From Planctomycetales bacterium (GTDB taxonomy: Bacteria; Planctomycetota; Planctomycetia; Isosphaerales; Isosphaeraceae): a DNA stretch of 60,549 bases. The notes below the pieces were generated by a model. That model saw only the letters and a program-made list of their open reading frames with translations, was not told the DNA's origin and made no database searches. Numbering within the stretch: position 1 is the stretch's first letter; each line of letters opens with the position of its first letter. The stretch spans positions 1 to 60,549 of the forward strand of contig DAIDHX010000005.1 of the NCBI GenBank assembly GCA_027451885.1, given 5' to 3'. Of the stretch, positions 46,315 to 56,300 are shown piece after piece. The position numbers and the translations under genes were made by a program.

Positions 46315-48426
46315 GTGGCAAGCGCGAGTGACATTCCCGGCGTGCGCGTGGCGAAGTGCGTCTGCCCGCTCGACTGCCCCGACACGTGCTCGATGCTCGT
46401 CACCGTGCGGGATGGCGTTGCAGTCGAGCTCAGGGGAGATCCCGATCACACATTCACCCGCGGGTTCCTGTGCCAGAAGATGGCCCGGTATCTCGACAGG
46501 GTGTACAGCCCGGAGCGTCTGCTGACTCCACTGCGCAGGGTTGGCCGCAAGGGGCAGGGCAAGTTCGAGCCGATTTCCTGGGACGCTGCACTCGAGCTAA
46601 TCGCGGCCCGCTTCCGATCGATCGCCGAATCGAGCCACGGGCCGCAGGCGATCTTGCCCTATAGTTATTACGGCACGATGGGGAAGATCCAGGCGAGCAG
46701 CCTCGATCGCCGCTTCTTTCACCGGCTGGGAGCGAGCAAGCTCGATCGTACGATTTGTGCCTCGGCCGGGGGCCTGGGGTATGAATACACGCTCGGCCGA
46801 GGGCGGCTGGGCGCGGATCCATATGCCGTGCCGGGATGCCAGCTCATCATCAACTGGGGCTCGAACACCGCGAACACGAATAGCCATCTCTGGAGTCTGA
46901 TGATCGAGGCGCGTAAACAGGGCGCGTCGATCGTGACGATCGATCCCTACCAGAGCCCCACCGCGACGCGCTCCGACTGGCACATTCAACCTCGGCCCGG
47001 CACCGACGCCGCGCTTGCGCTTGGGCTCATGCACGTTATCTGGAGCGAGGGGCTCGAGGATCGCGCGTATCTCGCGCGTGCCGTGATCGGCGCAGAGGCG
47101 CTGCGGGATCGCGTTTTGGCCGAGTACGCTCCCGAGATCGTGGCGGCGATCACCGGCGTCGATTCGGACGCGATCCGCATCCTGGCGCGGCGTATCGCGC
47201 TTGAACAGCCGGTCTTCATCCGCATCAATTACGGCCTTCAGCGCCATCACGGCGGCGGTATGGCCGTGCGCACCATCGCGTGTCTGCCCGCCCTGATCGG
47301 CGCCTGGCTCAAGCCAGGGGGCGGCTGCCTGCTCTCCACCAGCGGCACCTACGACTGGGCGCAGGGCCGGCTCGAACGCCCAGATCTTGCACCCGCCGGA
47401 ACCCGCACCATCAACATGAACCAGCTTGGCGAAGCGCTCCTGGGCGAGCTCCCCGGTCCGCCTATTCAGGCATTATATGTTTATAACTGCAATCCAGCAG
47501 CCGTTGCTCCCAACCAGGCGAAGGTTCTAAGCGGGCTCGCGCGCGAGGATCTCTTTGTGGTGGTGCACGAGCAGTTCCCCACGGACACCGTCGATTATGC
47601 CGATGTGGTTTTGCCCGCGACGACCCAGCTCGAGCATCACGACCTGCACGGCTCTTACGGCCACCACGACGTGATGTACAACGCGCAGGCGATCCCGCCG
47701 CGGGGCCAGGCGCGGTCGAACAGCGAGGTCTTCCGGGCGCTCGCTGCGCGCATGGGCTTTGAGCCCGAGCTTTTTCCCGATGACGAAACGCTGATGCGAA
47801 ACGCACTCGACGGCGGGCCAGCGCTTGCTGGCATCACGCTCGAGGAGCTGAAGGCAAGCGGCTCGAAACGGCTCAACTTGCCGGCGGTTTATGCCCCGTT
47901 TGCCGACGGCGTGTTTCCCACCCCCTCGGGCAAGTGCGAGTTTTATTCGGAGCGGATGAAGTTGGACGGGCACGATCCCTTGCCCACGTATACGCCCCCC
48001 CTGGAGGATCCGCTCACGCGGCCCGATCTTGCCAGGCGGTATCCGATTCAATTGATCTCGCCGCCGCGCCCGCAGTTTTTGAACTCGACCTTCGCCAATT
48101 CCGACCGGCATCGCCGCGCGGCGGGCGAGCCGACGATCGAGCTGGCGGCGGAGGACGCGGCCGTGCGCGGGCTTGTCGCGGGGCAGTGGGTGGAAGTGGT
48201 CAACGACCGGGGCGTTTTCCAGGCCCGGGTCTCGCTCGCCGGCAGGGTGCGCCCGGGCGTCGCCGTGGCCACCGGCATTTACTGGAACAAGCTCTCACCC
48301 GGCGGCTCGAACGTGAACAGCACCACCTCGTCAGCCCTCACCGACTTCGCCGGCGGAGCGACCTTCTTCGACAATCTTGTTGAGGTTCGCCCCGTCACGG
48401 ACCCCAGCGCGGGAGCTCGATCATGA
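46315..48426 (+). CDS. Molybdopterin oxidoreductase with N-terminal 4Fe-4S cluster
   Basis: Cytoplasmic bis-MGD enzyme of 703 residues, DMSO-reductase superfamily. The 4Fe-4S cluster uses Cys17, Cys21, Cys25 and Cys53. RYLDRVYSPERLLTPLRR joins it to the cofactor domains, which contain YSYYGTMGKIQ, NWGSNTANTNSH and the C-terminal MPT-binding beta-barrel. The Mo ligand is not obvious. No Tat signal is present. The GTG at 46315 has GGAGG about 9 bases upstream. The relatives are thiosulfate/polysulfide- or formate-type enzymes, but the substrate is unknown. The gene overlaps a glutaredoxin-like gene by 4 bases, which suggests a thiol electron donor or acceptor. Confidence 0.87.
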   Translation: MASASDIPGVRVAKCVCPLDCPDTCSMLVTVRDGVAVELRGDPDHTFTRGFLCQKMARYLDRVYSPERLLTPLRRVGRKGQGKFEPISWDAALELIAARFRSIAESSHGPQAILPYSYYGTMGKIQASSLDRRFFHRLGASKLDRTICASAGGLGYEYTLGRGRLGADPYAVPGCQLIINWGSNTANTNSHLWSLMIEARKQGASIVTIDPYQSPTATRSDWHIQPRPGTDAALALGLMHVIWSEGLEDRAYLARAVIGAEALRDRVLAEYAPEIVAAITGVDSDAIRILARRIALEQPVFIRINYGLQRHHGGGMAVRTIACLPALIGAWLKPGGGCLLSTSGTYDWAQGRLERPDLAPAGTRTINMNQLGEALLGELPGPPIQALYVYNCNPAAVAPNQAKVLSGLAREDLFVVVHEQFPTDTVDYADVVLPATTQLEHHDLHGSYGHHDVMYNAQAIPPRGQARSNSEVFRALAARMGFEPELFPDDETLMRNALDGGPALAGITLEELKASGSKRLNLPAVYAPFADGVFPTPSGKCEFYSERMKLDGHDPLPTYTPPLEDPLTRPDLARRYPIQLISPPRPQFLNSTFANSDRHRRAAGEPTIELAAEDAAVRGLVAGQWVEVVNDRGVFQARVSLAGRVRPGVAVATGIYWNKLSPGGSNVNSTTSSALTDFAGGATFFDNLVEVRPVTDPSAGARS

Positions 48427-48722
48427 CCACGCTTCTCGCACGGCTGCTCGGGCGCGGGCGGGCGCGCCTTGCGCCCAGGCGCGTCGTCGTTTATAGCCGC
48501 CAGTGCTGCGGCTGTTGCGACAGGGCGTTTGAGACCCTTGCCCGTGCAAACAGGCGATACCCGCTCGCCATCCAACGCGTCGATGTGGATCTCGATCCGG
48601 AGCTCCAGGCCAGGTTCGGACAGGAGGTGCCTGTTGTCGAGATCGACGGCAAGGTGCGTTTCCGCGGCAAGGTCAATCCCGTGTTGCTCGAGCGGCTGCT
48701 CGCCGCGAAGGCGGATGCGTAA
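48423..48722 (+). CDS. Glutaredoxin-like thioredoxin-fold protein
   Basis: Cytoplasmic 99-residue protein. The redox site is unusual: CCGCC at about residues 28-32 within VVYSRQCCGCCDRA, where typical relatives have a Cys-x2-Cys. The rest has the fold pattern VPVVEIDGKVRF, with the cis-Pro. It is translationally coupled to the molybdopterin oxidoreductase through an ATGA overlap, so it may shuttle electrons or protect that enzyme. Convergent with pcs. Confidence 0.75.
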   Translation: MTTLLARLLGRGRARLAPRRVVVYSRQCCGCCDRAFETLARANRRYPLAIQRVDVDLDPELQARFGQEVPVVEIDGKVRFRGKVNPVLLERLLAAKADA

Positions 48723-48749: not shown

Positions 48750-49598
48750 TCAGCGCATCGCCGCGGACTCCTCGGTTGGCGAGGTCTCGGCCCGCCTGTG
48801 CGCGGTTGCCTTCCGCACCCAGTAGCGCAGACTGATCCACCACGACACGCCCAGATAATACGCCGGATAGAAAAGCGAGACCCAGGTCAGGTTGAGCGTG
48901 CCGGCATCGAGCGTCCGGGCGGTTGTCTGTGGTAAGCGCCAGAGAATCCACGCCATGAGGAACGTCCAGGGAATACCCAGAATCGTGGTCCACAGATTAA
49001 GCCGCCCAGGCATGGACGGATAAAGATGTCGCGTTGGCACGAATGTGAGCACCGCAAGCAGGGTGATGATCCCGAGCGCGGCCCAGGGGCTGATCGGCAG
49101 CGCGTAGAGATAAAACGCCACCACGTTCCAGAGTGATGGAAAGCCCAGAAAGTAACCGTCGTCGGTTTTGGCCTGAACCTGGCAAAATCCATAGGCGCTG
49201 GCGTAGAGCGGCAGGATGAGCGCGGGCTCCCATCCCGCGGGCAGGATTTGTGCGCGGTAGATCAGGAAGAGCGGCAGGAAGGTGTAAGTGAGAAAGTCGA
49301 TGATGTCATCGAGCCGGCGGCCGTCGAAGCTGGGAACGGCTTCCTTGATCTTGACCTTGCGGGCGAGGGTGCCGTCGGTGGAGTCGATGATGGTTGCAAT
49401 CGCCATGAGCAGGAAGGACCAGCGAAATGCGTTCGCGCCTCCTTCAGCCAGCAGGGCCACGATGAGCGCGGCACAGACCAGGCCAAGCCCGGTATACGCG
49501 TGTACGCACCAACCCAGAACGCGCGTAAGCTTGCTGACAGCGTGCGGCCGCCTCGGCTCTGACTTGCGCCTGGGTTTGCGTTTCTTGAGCGTGAGCAT
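48750..49598 (-). CDS. pcs: Phosphatidylcholine synthase (CDP-alcohol phosphatidyltransferase)
   Basis: Inner-membrane enzyme of 282 residues, expected to condense choline with CDP-diacylglycerol to phosphatidylcholine and CMP. The CDP-alcohol motif is DGTLAR, then G-R-R-L-D-D-I-I-D (D-G-x2-A-R...G-x3-D-x3-D). Beyond the shared motif it tracks rhizobial Pcs closely: VHAYTGLG at the first helix, ARKVKIKEAVP, DFLTYTFLPLF, KTDDGYFLGFPSLWN and VLTFVPTRHLYP. About eight helices are predicted. The start at 49598 follows a Lys/Arg-rich end; the longer ORF to 49901 overlaps the permease gene. It is the last gene of the pmt-permease-pcs operon (31 bases after the permease). Confidence 0.9.
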   Translation of the reverse strand: MLTLKKRKPRRKSEPRRPHAVSKLTRVLGWCVHAYTGLGLVCAALIVALLAEGGANAFRWSFLLMAIATIIDSTDGTLARKVKIKEAVPSFDGRRLDDIIDFLTYTFLPLFLIYRAQILPAGWEPALILPLYASAYGFCQVQAKTDDGYFLGFPSLWNVVAFYLYALPISPWAALGIITLLAVLTFVPTRHLYPSMPGRLNLWTTILGIPWTFLMAWILWRLPQTTARTLDAGTLNLTWVSLFYPAYYLGVSWWISLRYWVRKATAHRRAETSPTEESAAMR

Positions 49599-49629
49599 GT
49601 GCGAGATCCTTCTTGAGATCCGTGGGGCG

Positions 49630-51162
49630 CTAGCCATCCGCCCCGGGCGTGGCCGCGTGCTCGGGCAGTATTCCAGAACGCTGCCGGTCACCAAATTTAT
49701 CATAGAGGAACGCGAGCGCCAGGAGCGAGGCCGTTGCAATGGGCGCAGCGTAGCGGGCGAGCGGCTCCTCGCCGTGGATTTCCACCCTGGGCCAGCCAAT
49801 ATTGACAACCACGCATGCGCTAAAGCACACGGCCGCGAGGTTGACTGCAAGCCCCAGGCGGCCGAGTGAGAAGTGGGGCTCGCCAGTGCGCTCCGCGCCA
49901 ATTGGACTCCCGCGGAATCGGCGGAGGAGAATCGGCAGGTTTGTCATCAGGTAGGCGAGATTTGCCCAGACAACGGCCAGCGAGCACAAGCTGGAGACGA
50001 CTCGGGGGTGGTTGAGGTTGGCGAGCAGGATCCCAAGCGCGAGCGATCCCACGAGGAGCAAGGGCGCAACAGGCGTGCGGGTACGCGGCGAGATCCGCGA
50101 GAGCCGGCCTGGCCAGGGGAGCACGCCGTCACGTGCCATGGCGAAGATCAAGCGTCCCGCGGTGCTCTGGACCGACACAGCGCAGAAGAAAACGGCCATG
50201 GCGGCGAGCCCGAGCAAGGGCGTGCCCAGGCGGGAACCGAGGGTGGATTTCACGATGAGTGCGAGCCCGCCGGTGAGCTTGCCGAGGGTGGGGCTTGTGG
50301 GCTCTGCCGCGGCCAGCAATCCGAAGATGATGAGCGCGCCTCCCGCCAGCCCGGAGGCGAGCAAGGCGCCCAGAATCGCCGCTGGAGCGCGCCTGCGCGG
50401 GTCGCGCGTTTCCTCGGAGAGAGCGGCCGCGGCGTCGAAGCCGTAGAGCACATAGGTTGATGCCAGCGAGGCCGCCAGCATCGCCCCCGCGCTCGACCTG
50501 CCTGATCCCGCCTGAATTCGCAGCAGCAGCTCAGGCCCATTGTGCATGGCAAGCGCGAGCAACGCGAGGAGCACAATCGCGGCCACAAGCTCGACCGCTG
50601 TACCCAGGCTGTTCACCTTGCCCAGCACGCGCACGCCCGAGAGGTTGACCAGCGTTGCCAGCCCCACCAGCACGCAACCCAGCAGCACGGCGTTTTTGCC
50701 GCTTGCCGTTTCATCTCCCGGCGCGCCCACGAGCTGAAAGCCGCTTGAGAGCATGGGCAGCGTGGCCTCGAGCGCAACCGCGACCGCCGCCAGGCTGACG
50801 ATCGCACACCCGAGCGCGACGAATCCGGTGAGCACGCCCCATCTGCGCCCGCCCAAATGCGCGGACCACTGGTAGATCCCGCCTGAAAGCGGGTATTGCG
50901 CGGAGAGCTCGGCAAAGCAAAGCGCGACTGCGGTCTGGCCCAGCAGCACCGCCGGCCAGGTCCAGAAAAACGCCGGCCCCGCCGCGGCGAATCCCAGGGG
51001 AAACACCTGGAAGACGCCGGTGAGGATCGACAGATAAGAGAATCCCGCCGCGAATGCGGAGAACGAACCGAGGCGGCGATCGAGCTCCTGGCGGTACCCG
51101 AAGGTGGCCAGGTCGCCCGCGTCGTCGAGAGATTTCGGCGTCACGGGCGGTCCCTGAGCCAT
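49630..51162 (-). CDS. APC-superfamily permease, amino acid/choline (ACT) type
   Basis: Inner-membrane transporter of 510 residues, about 12 helices. LSAQYPLSGGIYQWSAHLGG is the family hallmark after helix 2. STYVLYGFDAAAALSEETRDPRRRAPAAI and FFCAVSVQSTAGRLIFAMARDG are the conserved loops of the ACT group, which contains yeast choline and GABA permeases. It starts 10 bases after the PMT-type gene and ends 31 bases before pcs. That position makes choline, ethanolamine or a related amine a reasonable cargo, but amino acids cannot be excluded from sequence alone. Confidence 0.88.
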   Translation of the reverse strand: MAQGPPVTPKSLDDAGDLATFGYRQELDRRLGSFSAFAAGFSYLSILTGVFQVFPLGFAAAGPAFFWTWPAVLLGQTAVALCFAELSAQYPLSGGIYQWSAHLGGRRWGVLTGFVALGCAIVSLAAVAVALEATLPMLSSGFQLVGAPGDETASGKNAVLLGCVLVGLATLVNLSGVRVLGKVNSLGTAVELVAAIVLLALLALAMHNGPELLLRIQAGSGRSSAGAMLAASLASTYVLYGFDAAAALSEETRDPRRRAPAAILGALLASGLAGGALIIFGLLAAAEPTSPTLGKLTGGLALIVKSTLGSRLGTPLLGLAAMAVFFCAVSVQSTAGRLIFAMARDGVLPWPGRLSRISPRTRTPVAPLLLVGSLALGILLANLNHPRVVSSLCSLAVVWANLAYLMTNLPILLRRFRGSPIGAERTGEPHFSLGRLGLAVNLAAVCFSACVVVNIGWPRVEIHGEEPLARYAAPIATASLLALAFLYDKFGDRQRSGILPEHAATPGADG

Positions 51163-51172
51163 GTGCGTTAGC

Positions 51173-51976
51173 TTAGCTGCGGGCGGTGTAGATGCCCCAT
51201 TTCATGTCGCCGTTCTTGCAGAAGCCGACCTTCATCGCCCAGCGCTCGACCAGGTAATTCAGGTCGTTTTCCGGGAACACCGTGAGGAATTCCGAGCGGT
51301 TCGTCCTGAGCCGGTCGGCCTCGCTCTCGAGGATCTCGATGAACTTCGCGGTGGCGTCGTCGACCACAACATCCGTGAAACCGGCCTGTTCGAGCAGCTT
51401 GCCATACTGGGCCGGCTCGACGACGTGGTAGCCGGTCTTCTTGATGTATTCCTCGAAGGCGGGACTGCCAGGGGTTTTGCCACGGGCGTAATCCGTGATC
51501 ACGAGCGTGCCGCCCGGCGCCATCAGGCTTCTAAGCCGCGAAAAGAGCCGTGGCTTGTCCGGGATGTGCATGAGCGCGTCCCGGCTCCAAACGATGTCGA
51601 ACGGCTCGGGAAAATCGGTCACGAGCACGTCGCCCAGAATCGAGACGACCTGGTCGCCGAGCGATTCCTTCTCAGCGCGTTCGAGCGCGATGGCGATCAT
51701 TTCCTGCGCCAGGTCGATGCCGATCACCCTGGCGCCGTAGGTCCTGGCAAGGTGGAACGCTGCGCCGCCGATCCCGCTGCCCACGTCGAGCACGCGTGCG
51801 CCCGGCTTAAGCGCGCCTTGAATGCGGCGGCATAGGTCTTCCGTGGTCGCGGCCCCGCCGGTGCTCACATAGCCCGGTCCGAAGATCATCTCGTAGCGAA
51901 GAATGCTGGTGCGGCTGTACTGACCGTTGTTGTCGAATTTGGGCGGGGCGGCTTGCGCAGCCTGTTGCGTCGTCAT
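51173..51976 (-). CDS. Phosphoethanolamine N-methyltransferase (PMT/PfPMT type)
   Basis: SAM-dependent cytoplasmic methyltransferase of 267 residues, the size of Plasmodium PMT (266). QYSRTSILRYEMIFG (Tyr20, Tyr28) corresponds to the Tyr19/Tyr27 region of the Plasmodium enzyme. VLDVGSGIGG binds SAM. SRDALMHI supplies the Asp/His pair equivalent to Asp128/His132. ITDYARG, KTGYHVVEPAQY and KNGDMKWGIYTA complete the phosphobase pocket. It is expected to convert phosphoethanolamine to phosphocholine in three steps. The ATG at 51976 is preferred; ORF extension to 52261 would overlap the surface-protein gene. It is the first gene of the operon with the permease and pcs. Confidence 0.85.
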   Translation of the reverse strand: MTTQQAAQAAPPKFDNNGQYSRTSILRYEMIFGPGYVSTGGAATTEDLCRRIQGALKPGARVLDVGSGIGGAAFHLARTYGARVIGIDLAQEMIAIALERAEKESLGDQVVSILGDVLVTDFPEPFDIVWSRDALMHIPDKPRLFSRLRSLMAPGGTLVITDYARGKTPGSPAFEEYIKKTGYHVVEPAQYGKLLEQAGFTDVVVDDATAKFIEILESEADRLRTNRSEFLTVFPENDLNYLVERWAMKVGFCKNGDMKWGIYTARS

Positions 51977-52058: not shown

Positions 52059-55000
52059 TCAAAAACGAGCCTTATTATCTGAAGATTGGAGGAAGAAAGC
52101 AAATCGGCGGATGTGATGCCGGGTTGGCGGCAAGCCGCGATGGACCTGTACAAGCGGTCTGCGGAGCGTGTGTCTGGCCCTGGGATGCTGTGCATGAACA
52201 ACGGTCGGGACGCCCATGCCCTCGATGTAGAAAGGCGGGCGTTTGAGATGGATCTTGACACTCCCCGTGCCCTGGATTGCGGGGAGAATTGTTCGGCCGG
52301 GCGAAGCGCCTTGCCGCTTGACCGAGCCCGAGAGCGTGCTCTGCCGCGTGGTCGGGCCCAGGATTCCCAGGAAGTCGACGGCCCCGCTCGGGGCTTGCTG
52401 GAGCTCCATGAGCCCGCCGTGGGCCAGGTTCAAGGTGACCAGATTTCCTACCGAGTCGTTGTAGACGAGGTGCGAGCCGACGCCGAACGTGAGCGCGATT
52501 GGCGCGCCGACTGCGCCGCCGTCGCCCACGAGAAGCGCGCCGGCCGGGCTTGCCAATCCGGCGTTGATGAACACGTTCGCACGCGGGTCGACGGTCAAGT
52601 TGAAGAGCTGGTTGAGCGGCAACGGCCGCGCGGGCACGAGCGTCACGGAGCTCGAGCTGGCGCCAGGGCTGTACACAGCCTGCGCGAGCGGGACGATGCC
52701 GCCGTTTGCATACGGGCCGGCGGAGAAGATGTAGTAGCCGTAATTCGCCAGATCGCTCGCCCGCGAGGGATCGAGCGGCATGTTGAACGAGAGCACGATC
52801 GCGCCGATGCCCGATCCAGAGGCCGCGATCTGTTCGGAGAGCAGAACTGGGGACGGCGGCGGTGGCGGCGTTTCCTGAATCACGAGCGTGGCGGTTGCGG
52901 TCGCGCCGATCACCGCGCCCCCCGTCGGCGCCGCAAGCGCGAGCTGAACCGTGGGATTGGGGGCGGTGGGATCAGAGATGAGCGGGATGGAGAACGTCGC
53001 GCCCGACTGGCCGGCGAGGAACGTCAGCACGCCCGATTCCGGTGTGTAATCGACTCCAGGCGCGGCGGTTCCGGGGCTTGTGGAATAGGCGACGGAAACC
53101 GCCGAGCTGCGGTTTCCGCCCCGGATGACCGTGATTGTGGCGGATCCGCCCGTGGCCATCGCGGTGTAACTCGGCGCCGAGAAGGCGATCGTCGGCGGCA
53201 GGTTGTCGACGGTTGTGAGCTCGTAGCTGGCAGGCGCGCTCAATGTCTCGCTCCCGGTTGGCGCGGAGAGTGCCAGATTCACCGTCGTCGCGGCCGCCGT
53301 TTGAAGGATGTTCTCGAGAATCGGCACGCTGAATCCAAGCTGCATCTGCCCCGGCTGGAATGTGAGCGTGCCAGAGGTCGCCGTGTAATCGAACCCGGCC
53401 GCCGCCGTTCCATTCGCCGTGGCGTAATTGACCGAGACAAGCGCGTTCGGGTTGCCAATGCGATCGACCTGGATGTCCGCCTGGCCCGAAGTCGCCGTGG
53501 TCGATTGCGCCGCGACCGCGAATTGCAGGCTCACCGGCTGAGCCGAGACCGAGTTGGAAAACTCCGACGTATCCCCCGTGTTCAAGTTGGTCGCCGTGGT
53601 GGTGATCCAGGTGTTCGGAGGCAGGCCAAGCGGAGGCGCCAGGTCGGCGGCCGCGTTGCCGTTCGCGTCGGTCGTCACCGTGAGCGATTGCAGAAATGTT
53701 TGTCCCTGCCCATAACCCGATGGGTCGGGGATCGTACTCGTGAAAAACTGGATCAGAAACGGAGTGTTCGGCAGGCTGTTCAGGGTTGCCTGGGCCGCGC
53801 CTTGCGCGCCTCCGACCGCGGCAACCACGACCGGCGTGTTTTGCAGGTCGTTCGGGCCCACGCGCACCCCGGGCGCATTGGGCGTGATCCCCGAGGGAGG
53901 ATCGCCGGGCGCGACCAGATCGATGCCAATCAGGCCATTCTGATAGATCGAGTTCGAGAGGATCGCATTCCCCACGCCGGACTGCACGCTGACACCGGCA
54001 TCAACGTTGAAGTCGATCGTGTTGCCCGCGCCCGCGACCGTGCCGCCAAGCGTGTTGTTGGATGCGCTCGTCGAGAACACCACGCCGTTCGTCTCGTTGC
54101 CAAGCGGCCTGGCGCCGGTGAGGTCGGTGCCGATGAGGTTGCCCTCGATCAGGTTGTTGATCGCGGTCGCGCCGTCGACTTGCACGCCGATCAGGTTGGC
54201 GGAGATCACATTCAGCGCGTTTGCCGTCACCCCGCCCACGGTGTTGCCGTAGCCGCCCTCGATCAAGATCCCCTCGTTCGAATTGCCGCGATCGGCCGAG
54301 CCCGCCCTGTCGAGCCCGATCAGGCTGCCGGTGATCAGGTTGCCGGTTGAGGTCGAACCCAGAATCTCCACACCGATCTGGTTGCCGGAGATGACCTGCC
54401 CCCCTTGCGCGTCTCCCTGGATGGTGTTGTTCGACGCGTTCTGGATAAGCACGCCTTGCAAGGCGTTGCCCAGGTCGGCCTCGCCGGTGATGTCGGTGCC
54501 GATGAGGTTGTTCTGCACCAGGATGTCGCTGGCGGTAGCGCCCGAGAGCAGGACGCCGACCAGGTTCGCGGAGATCACGTTGGCCGGGCCGATGGTGTTG
54601 TTTGGGGTGTAGACGGCGACGCCGTTCTCGCCATTGCCGAGCACCGCCGCGCCCGAGGAAATGAGGCCGATGATATTGTTCGCGACGCTGTTTTCGGTTG
54701 CGCTCGAACCGCTGATATCGACCCCGTCGCCGCTGTTGCGGCTGATCACGTTGCCGTCGCTCCCCACCGGGCCGCCGACCTGGTTGAAGGGAGCGTTGTC
54801 GAGAAAGACGCCGTCGCCGCGGTTGCCAGGGTCGCCGGTGCCGAAAATGTAGCCTCCGCCCGGCCCGGTGCCGATGTAGTTGGCCTCGATCAGGTTCCGC
54901 GCCGCACCCGGACCCTCCACGTGAATGCCGGCCGACTGGTTGCTCGAAATGAGATTCCCCGACCCCGCGACCGCTCCGCCGATGATGTTGCTCGAGGTCG

Positions 55001-56300
55001 AAACGATCGAGGCCGGGTTCGATGCACTCCCCAGCGAAAGGATCAAAACTCCTTCCGCGCCATTGGCGTTTTCGCTGTAAAGCCCGTTGAGCGAAGGGCC
55101 CAGGATTCCAATCTGATTATCAACGACCTGGTTGCCGTTCGCGCCTGGCTCGATCTCGATGCCCTGGGCGCCGTTGCCGCCGATGGCGTTCGCCGCCTGA
55201 ACATCGATCCCCCCGATCGTGGCGTTGCTGCCATAGAGCGTGATTCCCTGCTGCGCGTTGCCGCTGCCGGCCACGACCACATTGCCAGGCGCGGTCGCCG
55301 GCGCGCCTGTCTGGGCGTTGACCGGGTATTCGAAATACCTGCCGATATAGTTTCCCTGGATCAGATCGCCGGCATTGCCCCCCGGCTGAATCGACACGCC
55401 GACCGAGAAGCCGTCGATGATCAGGCCGCGGATGGTCACATTGGGAGAATCGACCACGAGTCCGGTCGCGCTGGCGGTGGCGGAGCCGTCCAGGATCACC
55501 CGGTCCTGGGAGTTGTAACCCGAGAGCGCGGCCGAGGAATTGGGCACCGACATGATGTACGTGGGCGTTCCAGGGACGCCGCCGATCACCGTGGTGAGCA
55601 CGGTCAGACTGACCGCGCCGCTCGCGCCGGCGAGGCTGCTCGAGGCCGCCAAGGTGGGAACTGCCTCGCCGCCGTAGGCCCCCTGAAACGCGAGCGTGAA
55701 TCCGCCGGAATCGAGCGGCCCGCCGCTCACGGTAACATTGCCCGTGCCCACAATTGTTTCCAGCGCGGACTGCACCGCGCCGGCTGGAGCGTCGTACGGG
55801 ATCGCGATGGTGGTGCCAACCGGCAACGGCGCCGCGGTGGTCAGCGTGAACGACCCTGAGGTGGGAGCCGCGCTCGCGCTGATAAACTGCGAGGCGGAGC
55901 TGATATTGTCAGGATAGATGTAGGGTTCGCCAACGCCGTTTCGGGCCTGCGAAAAGCCGTCCATGTAAACCGGGCGGGTGATCGCCGGCAGAGGCGTCGC
56001 GGGCGTGATCGTCCATTCCTGGGTCGTGGGACTGAAGCCGGGCACGGGAACGTTGAGCTCAGGTGCGGTTGAGGCGGGGATGCCGAACTCGATGTTGATC
56101 ACCCCGGGAGCGGTGCTGGCATTGGCGTCCAGGATCGCCTGGCGCAGCGAGCCCGGGCCAGAATCGCTCGTATTCGTGACCGTGTAGGTGTACGCGGAAA
56201 GCAGGCGGCGGTCCTCGAGCAGTTCGAGACCCAGCCGGCGTGCGTGTTTGCGGCTTCCAGGAGGTGCCAATCGGCTTCCAGGCTTGATCATGCGGCTCAT
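52059..56300 (-). CDS. Giant surface protein: beta-helix repeats with two Calx-beta domains and planctomycete N-terminal motif
   Basis: A 1413-residue predicted extracellular protein. The N-terminus has Lys/Arg residues then LELLEDRRLLSA, the planctomycete motif for surface/export targeting. After SDSGPGSLRQAILDANA come dozens of right-handed beta-helix repeats rich in NNTIGG/NLIGTD/GVQI-type turns (about 150-900). Two Calx-beta domains follow (about 960-1180, with SVNYATANGTAAAGFDYT and its counterpart). The C-terminal part has an Ig-like segment and a basic His/Arg-rich tail. It probably binds calcium or polysaccharide. The ATG at 56291 is an alternative start: GAGG is directly abutting the ATG at 56300 but 9 bases before that at 56291. 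Confidence 0.85.
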   Translation of the reverse strand: MSRMIKPGSRLAPPGSRKHARRLGLELLEDRRLLSAYTYTVTNTSDSGPGSLRQAILDANASTAPGVINIEFGIPASTAPELNVPVPGFSPTTQEWTITPATPLPAITRPVYMDGFSQARNGVGEPYIYPDNISSASQFISASAAPTSGSFTLTTAAPLPVGTTIAIPYDAPAGAVQSALETIVGTGNVTVSGGPLDSGGFTLAFQGAYGGEAVPTLAASSSLAGASGAVSLTVLTTVIGGVPGTPTYIMSVPNSSAALSGYNSQDRVILDGSATASATGLVVDSPNVTIRGLIIDGFSVGVSIQPGGNAGDLIQGNYIGRYFEYPVNAQTGAPATAPGNVVVAGSGNAQQGITLYGSNATIGGIDVQAANAIGGNGAQGIEIEPGANGNQVVDNQIGILGPSLNGLYSENANGAEGVLILSLGSASNPASIVSTSSNIIGGAVAGSGNLISSNQSAGIHVEGPGAARNLIEANYIGTGPGGGYIFGTGDPGNRGDGVFLDNAPFNQVGGPVGSDGNVISRNSGDGVDISGSSATENSVANNIIGLISSGAAVLGNGENGVAVYTPNNTIGPANVISANLVGVLLSGATASDILVQNNLIGTDITGEADLGNALQGVLIQNASNNTIQGDAQGGQVISGNQIGVEILGSTSTGNLITGSLIGLDRAGSADRGNSNEGILIEGGYGNTVGGVTANALNVISANLIGVQVDGATAINNLIEGNLIGTDLTGARPLGNETNGVVFSTSASNNTLGGTVAGAGNTIDFNVDAGVSVQSGVGNAILSNSIYQNGLIGIDLVAPGDPPSGITPNAPGVRVGPNDLQNTPVVVAAVGGAQGAAQATLNSLPNTPFLIQFFTSTIPDPSGYGQGQTFLQSLTVTTDANGNAAADLAPPLGLPPNTWITTTATNLNTGDTSEFSNSVSAQPVSLQFAVAAQSTTATSGQADIQVDRIGNPNALVSVNYATANGTAAAGFDYTATSGTLTFQPGQMQLGFSVPILENILQTAAATTVNLALSAPTGSETLSAPASYELTTVDNLPPTIAFSAPSYTAMATGGSATITVIRGGNRSSAVSVAYSTSPGTAAPGVDYTPESGVLTFLAGQSGATFSIPLISDPTAPNPTVQLALAAPTGGAVIGATATATLVIQETPPPPPSPVLLSEQIAASGSGIGAIVLSFNMPLDPSRASDLANYGYYIFSAGPYANGGIVPLAQAVYSPGASSSSVTLVPARPLPLNQLFNLTVDPRANVFINAGLASPAGALLVGDGGAVGAPIALTFGVGSHLVYNDSVGNLVTLNLAHGGLMELQQAPSGAVDFLGILGPTTRQSTLSGSVKRQGASPGRTILPAIQGTGSVKIHLKRPPFYIEGMGVPTVVHAQHPRARHTLRRPLVQVHRGLPPTRHHIRRFAFFLQSSDNKARF
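52074..52102 (-). promoter_or_regulatory. Candidate promoter of the pmt-permease-pcs operon
   Basis: On the minus strand TTGCTT (52102-52097) is 17 bases from GATAAT (52079-52074, 5 of 6). It overlaps the 3-prime end of the surface-protein gene. The leader to the PMT ATG would be about 90 bases. It supports separate transcription of the phospholipid operon. Confidence 0.45.

Follow-up and report, generated by a model that had tools for sequence, protein, structure and literature searches.

How might a bacterium that lacks a recognizable route to phosphatidylethanolamine (PE) make phosphatidylcholine (PC)? The question is raised by three neighboring genes in a 60,549-nucleotide stretch of DNA (the window; positions 1 to 60,549 of contig DAIDHX010000005.1, forward strand, GenBank assembly GCA_027451885.1) from a Planctomycetales bacterium of the family Isosphaeraceae, whose members are budding bacteria of soil. 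The genes encode a homolog of the phosphoethanolamine N-methyltransferases (PMTs), a permease, and a homolog of PC synthase (Pcs). We consider it likely that this Isosphaeraceae operon lets the bacterium make PC without PE, through PMT, a dephosphorylation step, and Pcs, with choline import as a parallel supply. The bacterial PC routes listed to date are PE methylation by PmtA, Pcs with imported choline, acylation of glycerophosphocholine (GPC), and the cytidine diphosphate (CDP)-choline route of Treponema (PMC8590670, PMC11409717, PMC10434233). Headgroup methylation joined to Pcs is absent from these routes, in agreement with a preliminary description of this DNA, according to which such an arrangement would be a distinct layout. 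The enzymes are of known kinds, and it is the combination of PMT and Pcs that appears to be new; in the open-licence literature (subscription journals lay outside the search), we found no description of a PMT linked to Pcs.

The three genes, all on the minus strand and separated by gaps of 10 and 31 bases, were placed correctly in the preliminary description, as the open reading frames (ORFs) bear out:

51173..51976, minus strand: PMT-like methyltransferase dependent on S-adenosylmethionine (SAM), 267 amino acids, predicted to convert phosphoethanolamine to phosphocholine (matches of sequence and AlphaFold model to the Protein Data Bank [PDB])
49630..51162, minus strand: APC-superfamily permease, 510 amino acids, predicted importer of choline, possibly of ethanolamine (PF13520, TIGR03428, TIGR00907; adjacency to Pcs without PMT elsewhere)
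48750..49598, minus strand: Pcs homolog, 282 amino acids, with its ATG at 49598 (NCBIfam Pcs models, identity to known Pcs, fold)
49607..49613, minus strand: Shine-Dalgarno-like AGAAGGA, 8 bases 5' of the Pcs ATG

The start of the methyltransferase at the ATG at 51976 coincides with the point where its alignment with the homologs of relatives begins; an alternative in-frame GTG at 52261 would give a longer product and is unsupported.

Both sequence and structure identify the methyltransferase as a member of the PMT family. In a phmmer search against the PDB, the best matches are the C-terminal domains of Arabidopsis PMTs (5wp5, E = 1.1e-66; 5wp4, E = 2.5e-64), followed by Plasmodium and nematode PMTs at 1e-47 to 3e-41, and the nearest family outside the PMTs, D-glucose O-methyltransferase, is reached at 4e-19. 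The AlphaFold model (pLDDT 93) gives the same picture: its top fifteen PDB matches are all PMTs (Z = 32–37.4, rmsd 1.3–2.2 over 236–263 residues), and the first non-PMT entry follows at Z = 29.2. Sarcosine/dimethylglycine, cyclopropane, ubiquinone, and sterol-type methyltransferases give much weaker matches in both sequence and fold. The PMT assignment made in the preliminary description from Tyr20, Tyr28, and the SRDALMH and ITDY motifs, all of which are present, therefore stands, and the enzyme groups with PMTs instead of with the sterol/quinone or sarcosine enzymes against which it was to be checked. In the Plasmodium falciparum enzyme (PfPMT), Tyr19 and His132 form the catalytic dyad, Tyr27, Tyr160, Tyr175, Tyr181, and Lys247 belong to the phosphobase site, and Arg179 makes an electrostatic contact in that site (PMC6705855). 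The dyad and phosphobase residues are kept here as Tyr20, His137, Tyr28, Tyr163, Tyr177, Tyr183, and Lys249, and three of the codons concerned in the comparison with PfPMT lie as follows:

51917..51919, minus strand: Tyr20 codon, counterpart of PfPMT Tyr19 in the catalytic dyad, invariant in both alignments
51566..51568, minus strand: His137 codon, counterpart of PfPMT His132 in the catalytic dyad, invariant in the alignments
51434..51436, minus strand: Thr181 codon, aligned with the position of PfPMT Arg179 in the phosphobase site

In a phylogeny of 44 PMT proteins, the Isosphaeraceae sequences form a supported group (100/98) near those of Myxococcota and Desulfobacterota, within a wider branch (98/98) that contains no eukaryotic sequences. 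Because of long branches, the deeper branching order is unsure.

The last gene of the operon was described as a Pcs of the rhizobial kind, and that family assignment holds. Among curated families, its product matches five NCBIfam Pcs models at 104–143 bits and all others at 26 bits or less, and it is about 36–38 per cent identical to the Pcs of Sinorhizobium meliloti and Legionella. Alignment with these annotated enzymes confirms the Pcs spacing AR-x12-G-x3-D-x3-D and the retention of the stretch K-T-x-D-x-x-F-x-G-F-P-x-x-W-N; the motif is located at

49296..49385, minus strand: Pcs-type CDP-alcohol phosphotransferase motif D72-x2-DG-x2-AR-x12-G-x3-D-x3-D101, aligned with S. meliloti Pcs (DGIDGPIARKVQVKEVLPNWSGDTLDNVID)

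The fold appears nearest to that of phosphatidylserine (PS) synthase, another member dependent on CDP-diacylglycerol (CDP-DAG; 7pow, Z = 14.8; 7b1k, Z = 14.0), with PgsA and phosphatidylinositol-phosphate synthases at Z = 8–10; as the protein is helical, we give these matches moderate weight. By homology, the enzyme is predicted to use free choline and CDP-DAG.

The middle gene, which the preliminary description had placed in the permease group that includes yeast choline carriers, encodes an APC-superfamily permease (PF13520, E = 1e-40). Its nearest models are TIGR03428 (440 bits, cut-off 740) and TIGR00907 (163 bits), and it scores under the cut-offs of both. Permease–Pcs pairs without a detected PMT occur in four relatives (G010, G027, G031, and G047), which suggests that the permease works for Pcs; import of choline would be the simplest such role.

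Is this gene arrangement more than a chance neighborhood? The preliminary description had called for a check of gene order in planctomycete genomes, and the linkage proves to be kept across Isosphaeraceae. Our sample of the family comprised 45 genomes, including Singulisphaera acidiphila (NC_019892), Paludisphaera soli, and Aquisphaera insulae, and a first sample comprised 37. PMT is present in 25 of the 45 genomes. In 16 of these, from 7 genera, PMT, permease, and Pcs stand together in the same order and on the same strand (G000, which is the genome of the window, and G001, G002, G003, G006, G008, G015, G019, G025, G029, G034, G036, G440, G441, G442, and G443), and because the arrangement recurs so widely, it is more than chance. 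Two further genera have PMT and Pcs adjacent without the permease (G013 and G022); in the remaining seven PMT genomes, the two genes stand apart, or a contig boundary blocks judgement. Within the first sample, Pcs was found in all 20 genomes with PMT and was absent from 13 of the 17 without it (Fisher P = 7e-7, a value that ignores shared ancestry). No PMT was recovered at 1e-35 from 391 other Planctomycetota genomes, a sample whose share of Isosphaeraceae is not shown and in which scoring was limited to the six top candidates of each genome, and a tblastn search of plasmids with PMT returned weaker methyltransferase matches and no PMT.

Several genomes also bear on how PC could arise without PE. 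No PS decarboxylase was detected in the genome of the window, and of the four CDP-alcohol phosphotransferases that it encodes, one is PgsA, one is Pcs, and the remaining two most resemble inositol-phosphate synthases, none being a recognizable PssA; PE methylation in this organism is therefore unlikely, judging by its gene content. Of the first sample's 20 genomes with PMT, 14, that of the window among them, lack PS decarboxylase, and the other 6 have it. At the level of lipids, the main classes reported for S. acidiphila, which bears both PMT and Pcs genes, are trimethylornithine lipid, PC, phosphatidylglycerol, and phosphatidic acid, and PE is not among them (PMC12493201). PC, whose presence in membranes the preliminary description had named as a check, is thus a major lipid of a relative. 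In S. acidiphila, the genes form two separate loci, PMT (8867079-8867873 of NC_019892) with a kinase and the permease with Pcs (7136125-7136838).

That kinase points to a possible source of the methyltransferase's substrate. In five relatives (G003, G034, G022, S. acidiphila, and Singulisphaera sp. GP187), the gene immediately upstream of PMT encodes a protein resembling choline/ethanolamine kinases; in G003 and G034, this yields a four-gene operon of kinase, PMT, permease, and Pcs. The kinases upstream of PMT score 71–91 bits against PF01633 (gathering score 29). Strong copies are confined to genomes with Pcs, and all of these genomes except G031, an 89 per cent complete draft, also have PMT. 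Kinase–PMT pairs additionally occur, without Pcs nearby, in two metagenome-assembled genomes (MAGs) of Desulfobacterota and in one proteobacterial MAG. In the Desulfobacterota MAGs, the pairs are at loci L114 and L117; the L114 pair is downstream of a gene for the monomethylamine methyltransferase MtmB, and in its PMT-like enzyme, Glu replaces the active-site Asp of other PMTs (PfPMT Asp128). In G019, a tyrosine/dual-specificity phosphatase-like gene (L169:7505-8215) is divergent from a stand-alone choline/ethanolamine kinase.

From these gene families and their linkage, we infer the substrates, the choline transport, the phosphatase, and the phosphoethanolamine source of the following pathway. 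In about half of the relatives that have PMT, ethanolamine would be phosphorylated by an ethanolamine kinase; in one genus, phosphoethanolamine may come from a CobD-like phosphoserine decarboxylase. PMT would methylate phosphoethanolamine three times to yield phosphocholine, from which a phosphatase encoded outside the operon would free choline. Pcs would then join choline to CDP-DAG to form PC. The permease would import choline when it is available, so that Pcs would have two supplies. The decarboxylase is our guess at the role of a second CobD-like enzyme. This pyridoxal-phosphate enzyme resembles threonine-phosphate decarboxylase, and in genus g8 its gene is next to PMT and divergent from it (L075:2727-3935 and L072:3317-4525). 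In Singulisphaera (L174 and L175), the CobD-like paralog is located outside the cobalamin cluster, which in S. acidiphila holds the ordinary copy.

The phosphatase step was already seen as the gap in the preliminary description, which named as the missing link either a phosphatase that turns phosphocholine into choline or a Pcs that accepts phosphocholine. The gap persists for the former, and the latter is unlikely on chemical grounds: the hydroxyl of phosphocholine is blocked, and Pcs would therefore need the phosphate to attack, giving a pyrophosphate-linked product. By analogy, choline could plausibly be set free within a bacterium, because the Pcs of Agrobacterium tumefaciens did not use CDP-choline and diacylglycerol (DAG), and Rhizobium leguminosarum made PC from CDP-choline and from GPC solely through Pcs, presumably after choline release (PMC11409717). 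PMT directly adjoins a phosphatase gene of the same orientation in two MAGs of Anaerolineales (L124:7125-7913 and L118:1183-1797); the phosphatase is of the HAD family in one and a histidine phosphatase in the other, and both are candidates for phosphocholine phosphatases.

Several observations weigh against the proposed pathway. The genome of the window yielded no counterpart of the choline/ethanolamine kinase of its relatives, no CobD-like protein at 1e-25, no serine decarboxylase candidate (PF00282), and no dedicated phosphocholine phosphatase (the PHOSPHO1/PECP-type family PF06888 is absent). At the methyltransferase, Arg179 of PfPMT, which is conserved in the eukaryotic enzymes compared, is replaced by Thr181, and we therefore file the first gene under a bacterial clade of the PMT family with a putative substrate. 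Across the sequences compared, all those from Isosphaeraceae have Thr here, those from Myxococcota and Desulfobacterota have Ser, and eukaryotes share Arg with Anaerolineales and Poribacteria. The Pcs homolog scores under the equivalog cut-offs of its models (143 versus 300 bits for NF045887 and 139 versus 440 bits for NF045886). As the five Pcs models each span one subgroup, it represents a new Pcs subgroup and not an outsider. In S. acidiphila, moreover, PMT and Pcs are not adjacent, a PS decarboxylase gene is present, and the medium held small amounts of yeast extract and peptone, from which choline could have been imported; because of that gene and that medium, the lipid evidence from this organism is supportive, not decisive. 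Among the APH-type hits in the genome of the window, which were screened for an ethanolamine kinase, the two best are not choline-kinase-like (one is weakly homoserine-kinase-like and the other weakly methylthioribose-kinase-like), and most of the others are long frames that resemble protein kinases.

The alternative that fares best, which we nevertheless hold to be unlikely, is that Pcs uses choline imported by the permease and nothing else, while PMT makes phosphocholine or methylated bases for an osmolyte or for surface phosphocholine, the operon being shared through the common choline headgroup. The permease–Pcs pairs without PMT and the yeast extract in S. acidiphila cultures fit this explanation. 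So do the PMTs of other phyla, which stand beside the kinase and not with Pcs, and in L127 and L128 near ProW-type transporters (read by eye); a non-lipid role of PMT is therefore possible. External choline alone hardly explains why PMT was confined to Pcs-bearing genomes throughout the first sample, or why PMT and Pcs are adjacent without the permease in G022 and G013.

We find it more doubtful that the enzyme of this clade methylates free ethanolamine, imported by the permease, straight to choline, which would make kinase and phosphatase unnecessary. The Thr at the Arg179 position and the failure to find a kinase, a CobD-like decarboxylase, or a PHOSPHO-type phosphatase in the genome of the window would be accounted for. 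Such a shift is harder to reconcile with the retention of the other phosphobase residues (Tyr20, Tyr28, Tyr163, Tyr177, Tyr183, and Lys249) and with the kinase-linked PMTs, which carry the same Thr in Isosphaeraceae or Ser in Desulfobacterota; because of these pairs, the substitution is associated with a substrate that is presumably phosphorylated. We also give little credence to the version in which the change from Arg179 to Thr marks a shift to free ethanolamine in the genomes that lack both kinase and phosphatase, where three genes would then lead from ethanolamine to PC without PE or phosphocholine.

It is very improbable that phosphocholine is instead converted to CDP-choline and that the Pcs-like protein is a cholinephosphotransferase with DAG as its acceptor, as in Treponema denticola. 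Phosphocholine, the product expected of PMT, is the first intermediate of that route, and the CDP-alcohol phosphotransferase fold is common to cholinephosphotransferases as well (8ero, Z = 8.7). The x12 spacing and the K-T-x-D to W-N stretch, the clear scores with Pcs models exclusively, and the best fold match, to a CDP-DAG-dependent synthase, nonetheless speak for a Pcs, as does the finding that the A. tumefaciens enzyme did not use CDP-choline and DAG (PMC11409717), and no cytidylyltransferase gene lies near the operon (a genome-wide search was not made). The least probable explanation, that PC comes from PE methylation by PmtA with the operon incidental, could draw on the PS decarboxylase of 6 of the 20 PMT genomes, that of S. 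acidiphila included, but meets its absence from the other 14, the lack of a recognizable PssA in the genome of the window, a methyltransferase of the soluble PMT family, and the fact that PE is not reported as a main lipid of S. acidiphila.

The proposed PC pathway through PMT and Pcs combines features of several known systems. With the phosphobase pathway of plants, nematodes, and Plasmodium (AtPMT1/2, HcPMT2, and PfPMT), it shares the enzyme family and fold (Z up to 37.4, 33–42 per cent identity), the Tyr/His dyad, the SAM motifs and, in Isosphaeraceae relatives, a kinase that would supply phosphoethanolamine. Eukaryotes feed phosphocholine into the CDP-choline (Kennedy) route, whereas here PMT is paired with Pcs, an enzyme that requires free choline; the Isosphaeraceae enzyme also differs from eukaryotic PMTs as a single-domain member of a bacterial clade with Thr in place of Arg179. 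The Pcs pathway of S. meliloti, Legionella, Pseudomonas, and Borrelia has in common with it the x12 motif, the CDP-alcohol phosphotransferase fold, and the expected CDP-DAG donor. Known Pcs routes are described as needing exogenous choline, whereas in Isosphaeraceae a Pcs of a subgroup under the present equivalog cut-offs is co-encoded with a predicted choline-making enzyme. The PmtA pathway likewise proceeds toward PC by SAM-dependent triple N-methylation; its substrate is the lipid PE, whereas here a soluble headgroup would be methylated in a genome without a recognizable PE pathway. The LicCA/CPT route of T. denticola also passes through phosphocholine, but it uses imported choline and joins CDP-choline to DAG, not choline to CDP-DAG.

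If the proposed pathway operates, headgroup methylation joined to Pcs would be a further bacterial arrangement for PC synthesis, one in which Pcs is freed from external choline. It would explain how PC can be a main planctomycete lipid without reported PE, and it would give the phosphobase enzyme, familiar from plants, worms, and malaria parasites, a part in a membrane pathway of bacteria. The pathway is testable in S. acidiphila, where genes have reportedly been deleted (PMC12493201).

The preliminary description had assigned the operon a candidate promoter of its own at 52074-52102, and this could not be confirmed: a sigma-70 scan gave 0 qualifying sites (0.2 expected), and the TTGCTT-17-GATAAT that can be read there falls within the next ORF upstream (52059-56300), at its 3' end. 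The product of this ORF, also on the minus strand, is 1413 amino acids long, contains Calx-beta domains, and carries a LELLEDRRLLSA motif in its N-terminal part; homologs also precede the PMT locus in G025, G034, and G029. Convergent to the operon are a molybdopterin-oxidoreductase-like ORF (46315-48426, plus strand) and a glutaredoxin-like ORF (48423-48722, plus strand), both read by eye, with no apparent link to lipid metabolism. Near Pcs, and mostly convergent to it, ten relatives carry a gene for an Atg22-like/UMF1 transporter of the MFS type (L056, L059, L061, L062, L064, L065, L068, L069, L070, and L074), which is absent from that place in the window. In two Poribacteria MAGs (L121 and L123), the gene after PMT is adenylate-kinase-like, and the opposite strand carries a CDP-alcohol phosphotransferase nearest to inositol-phosphate synthases.

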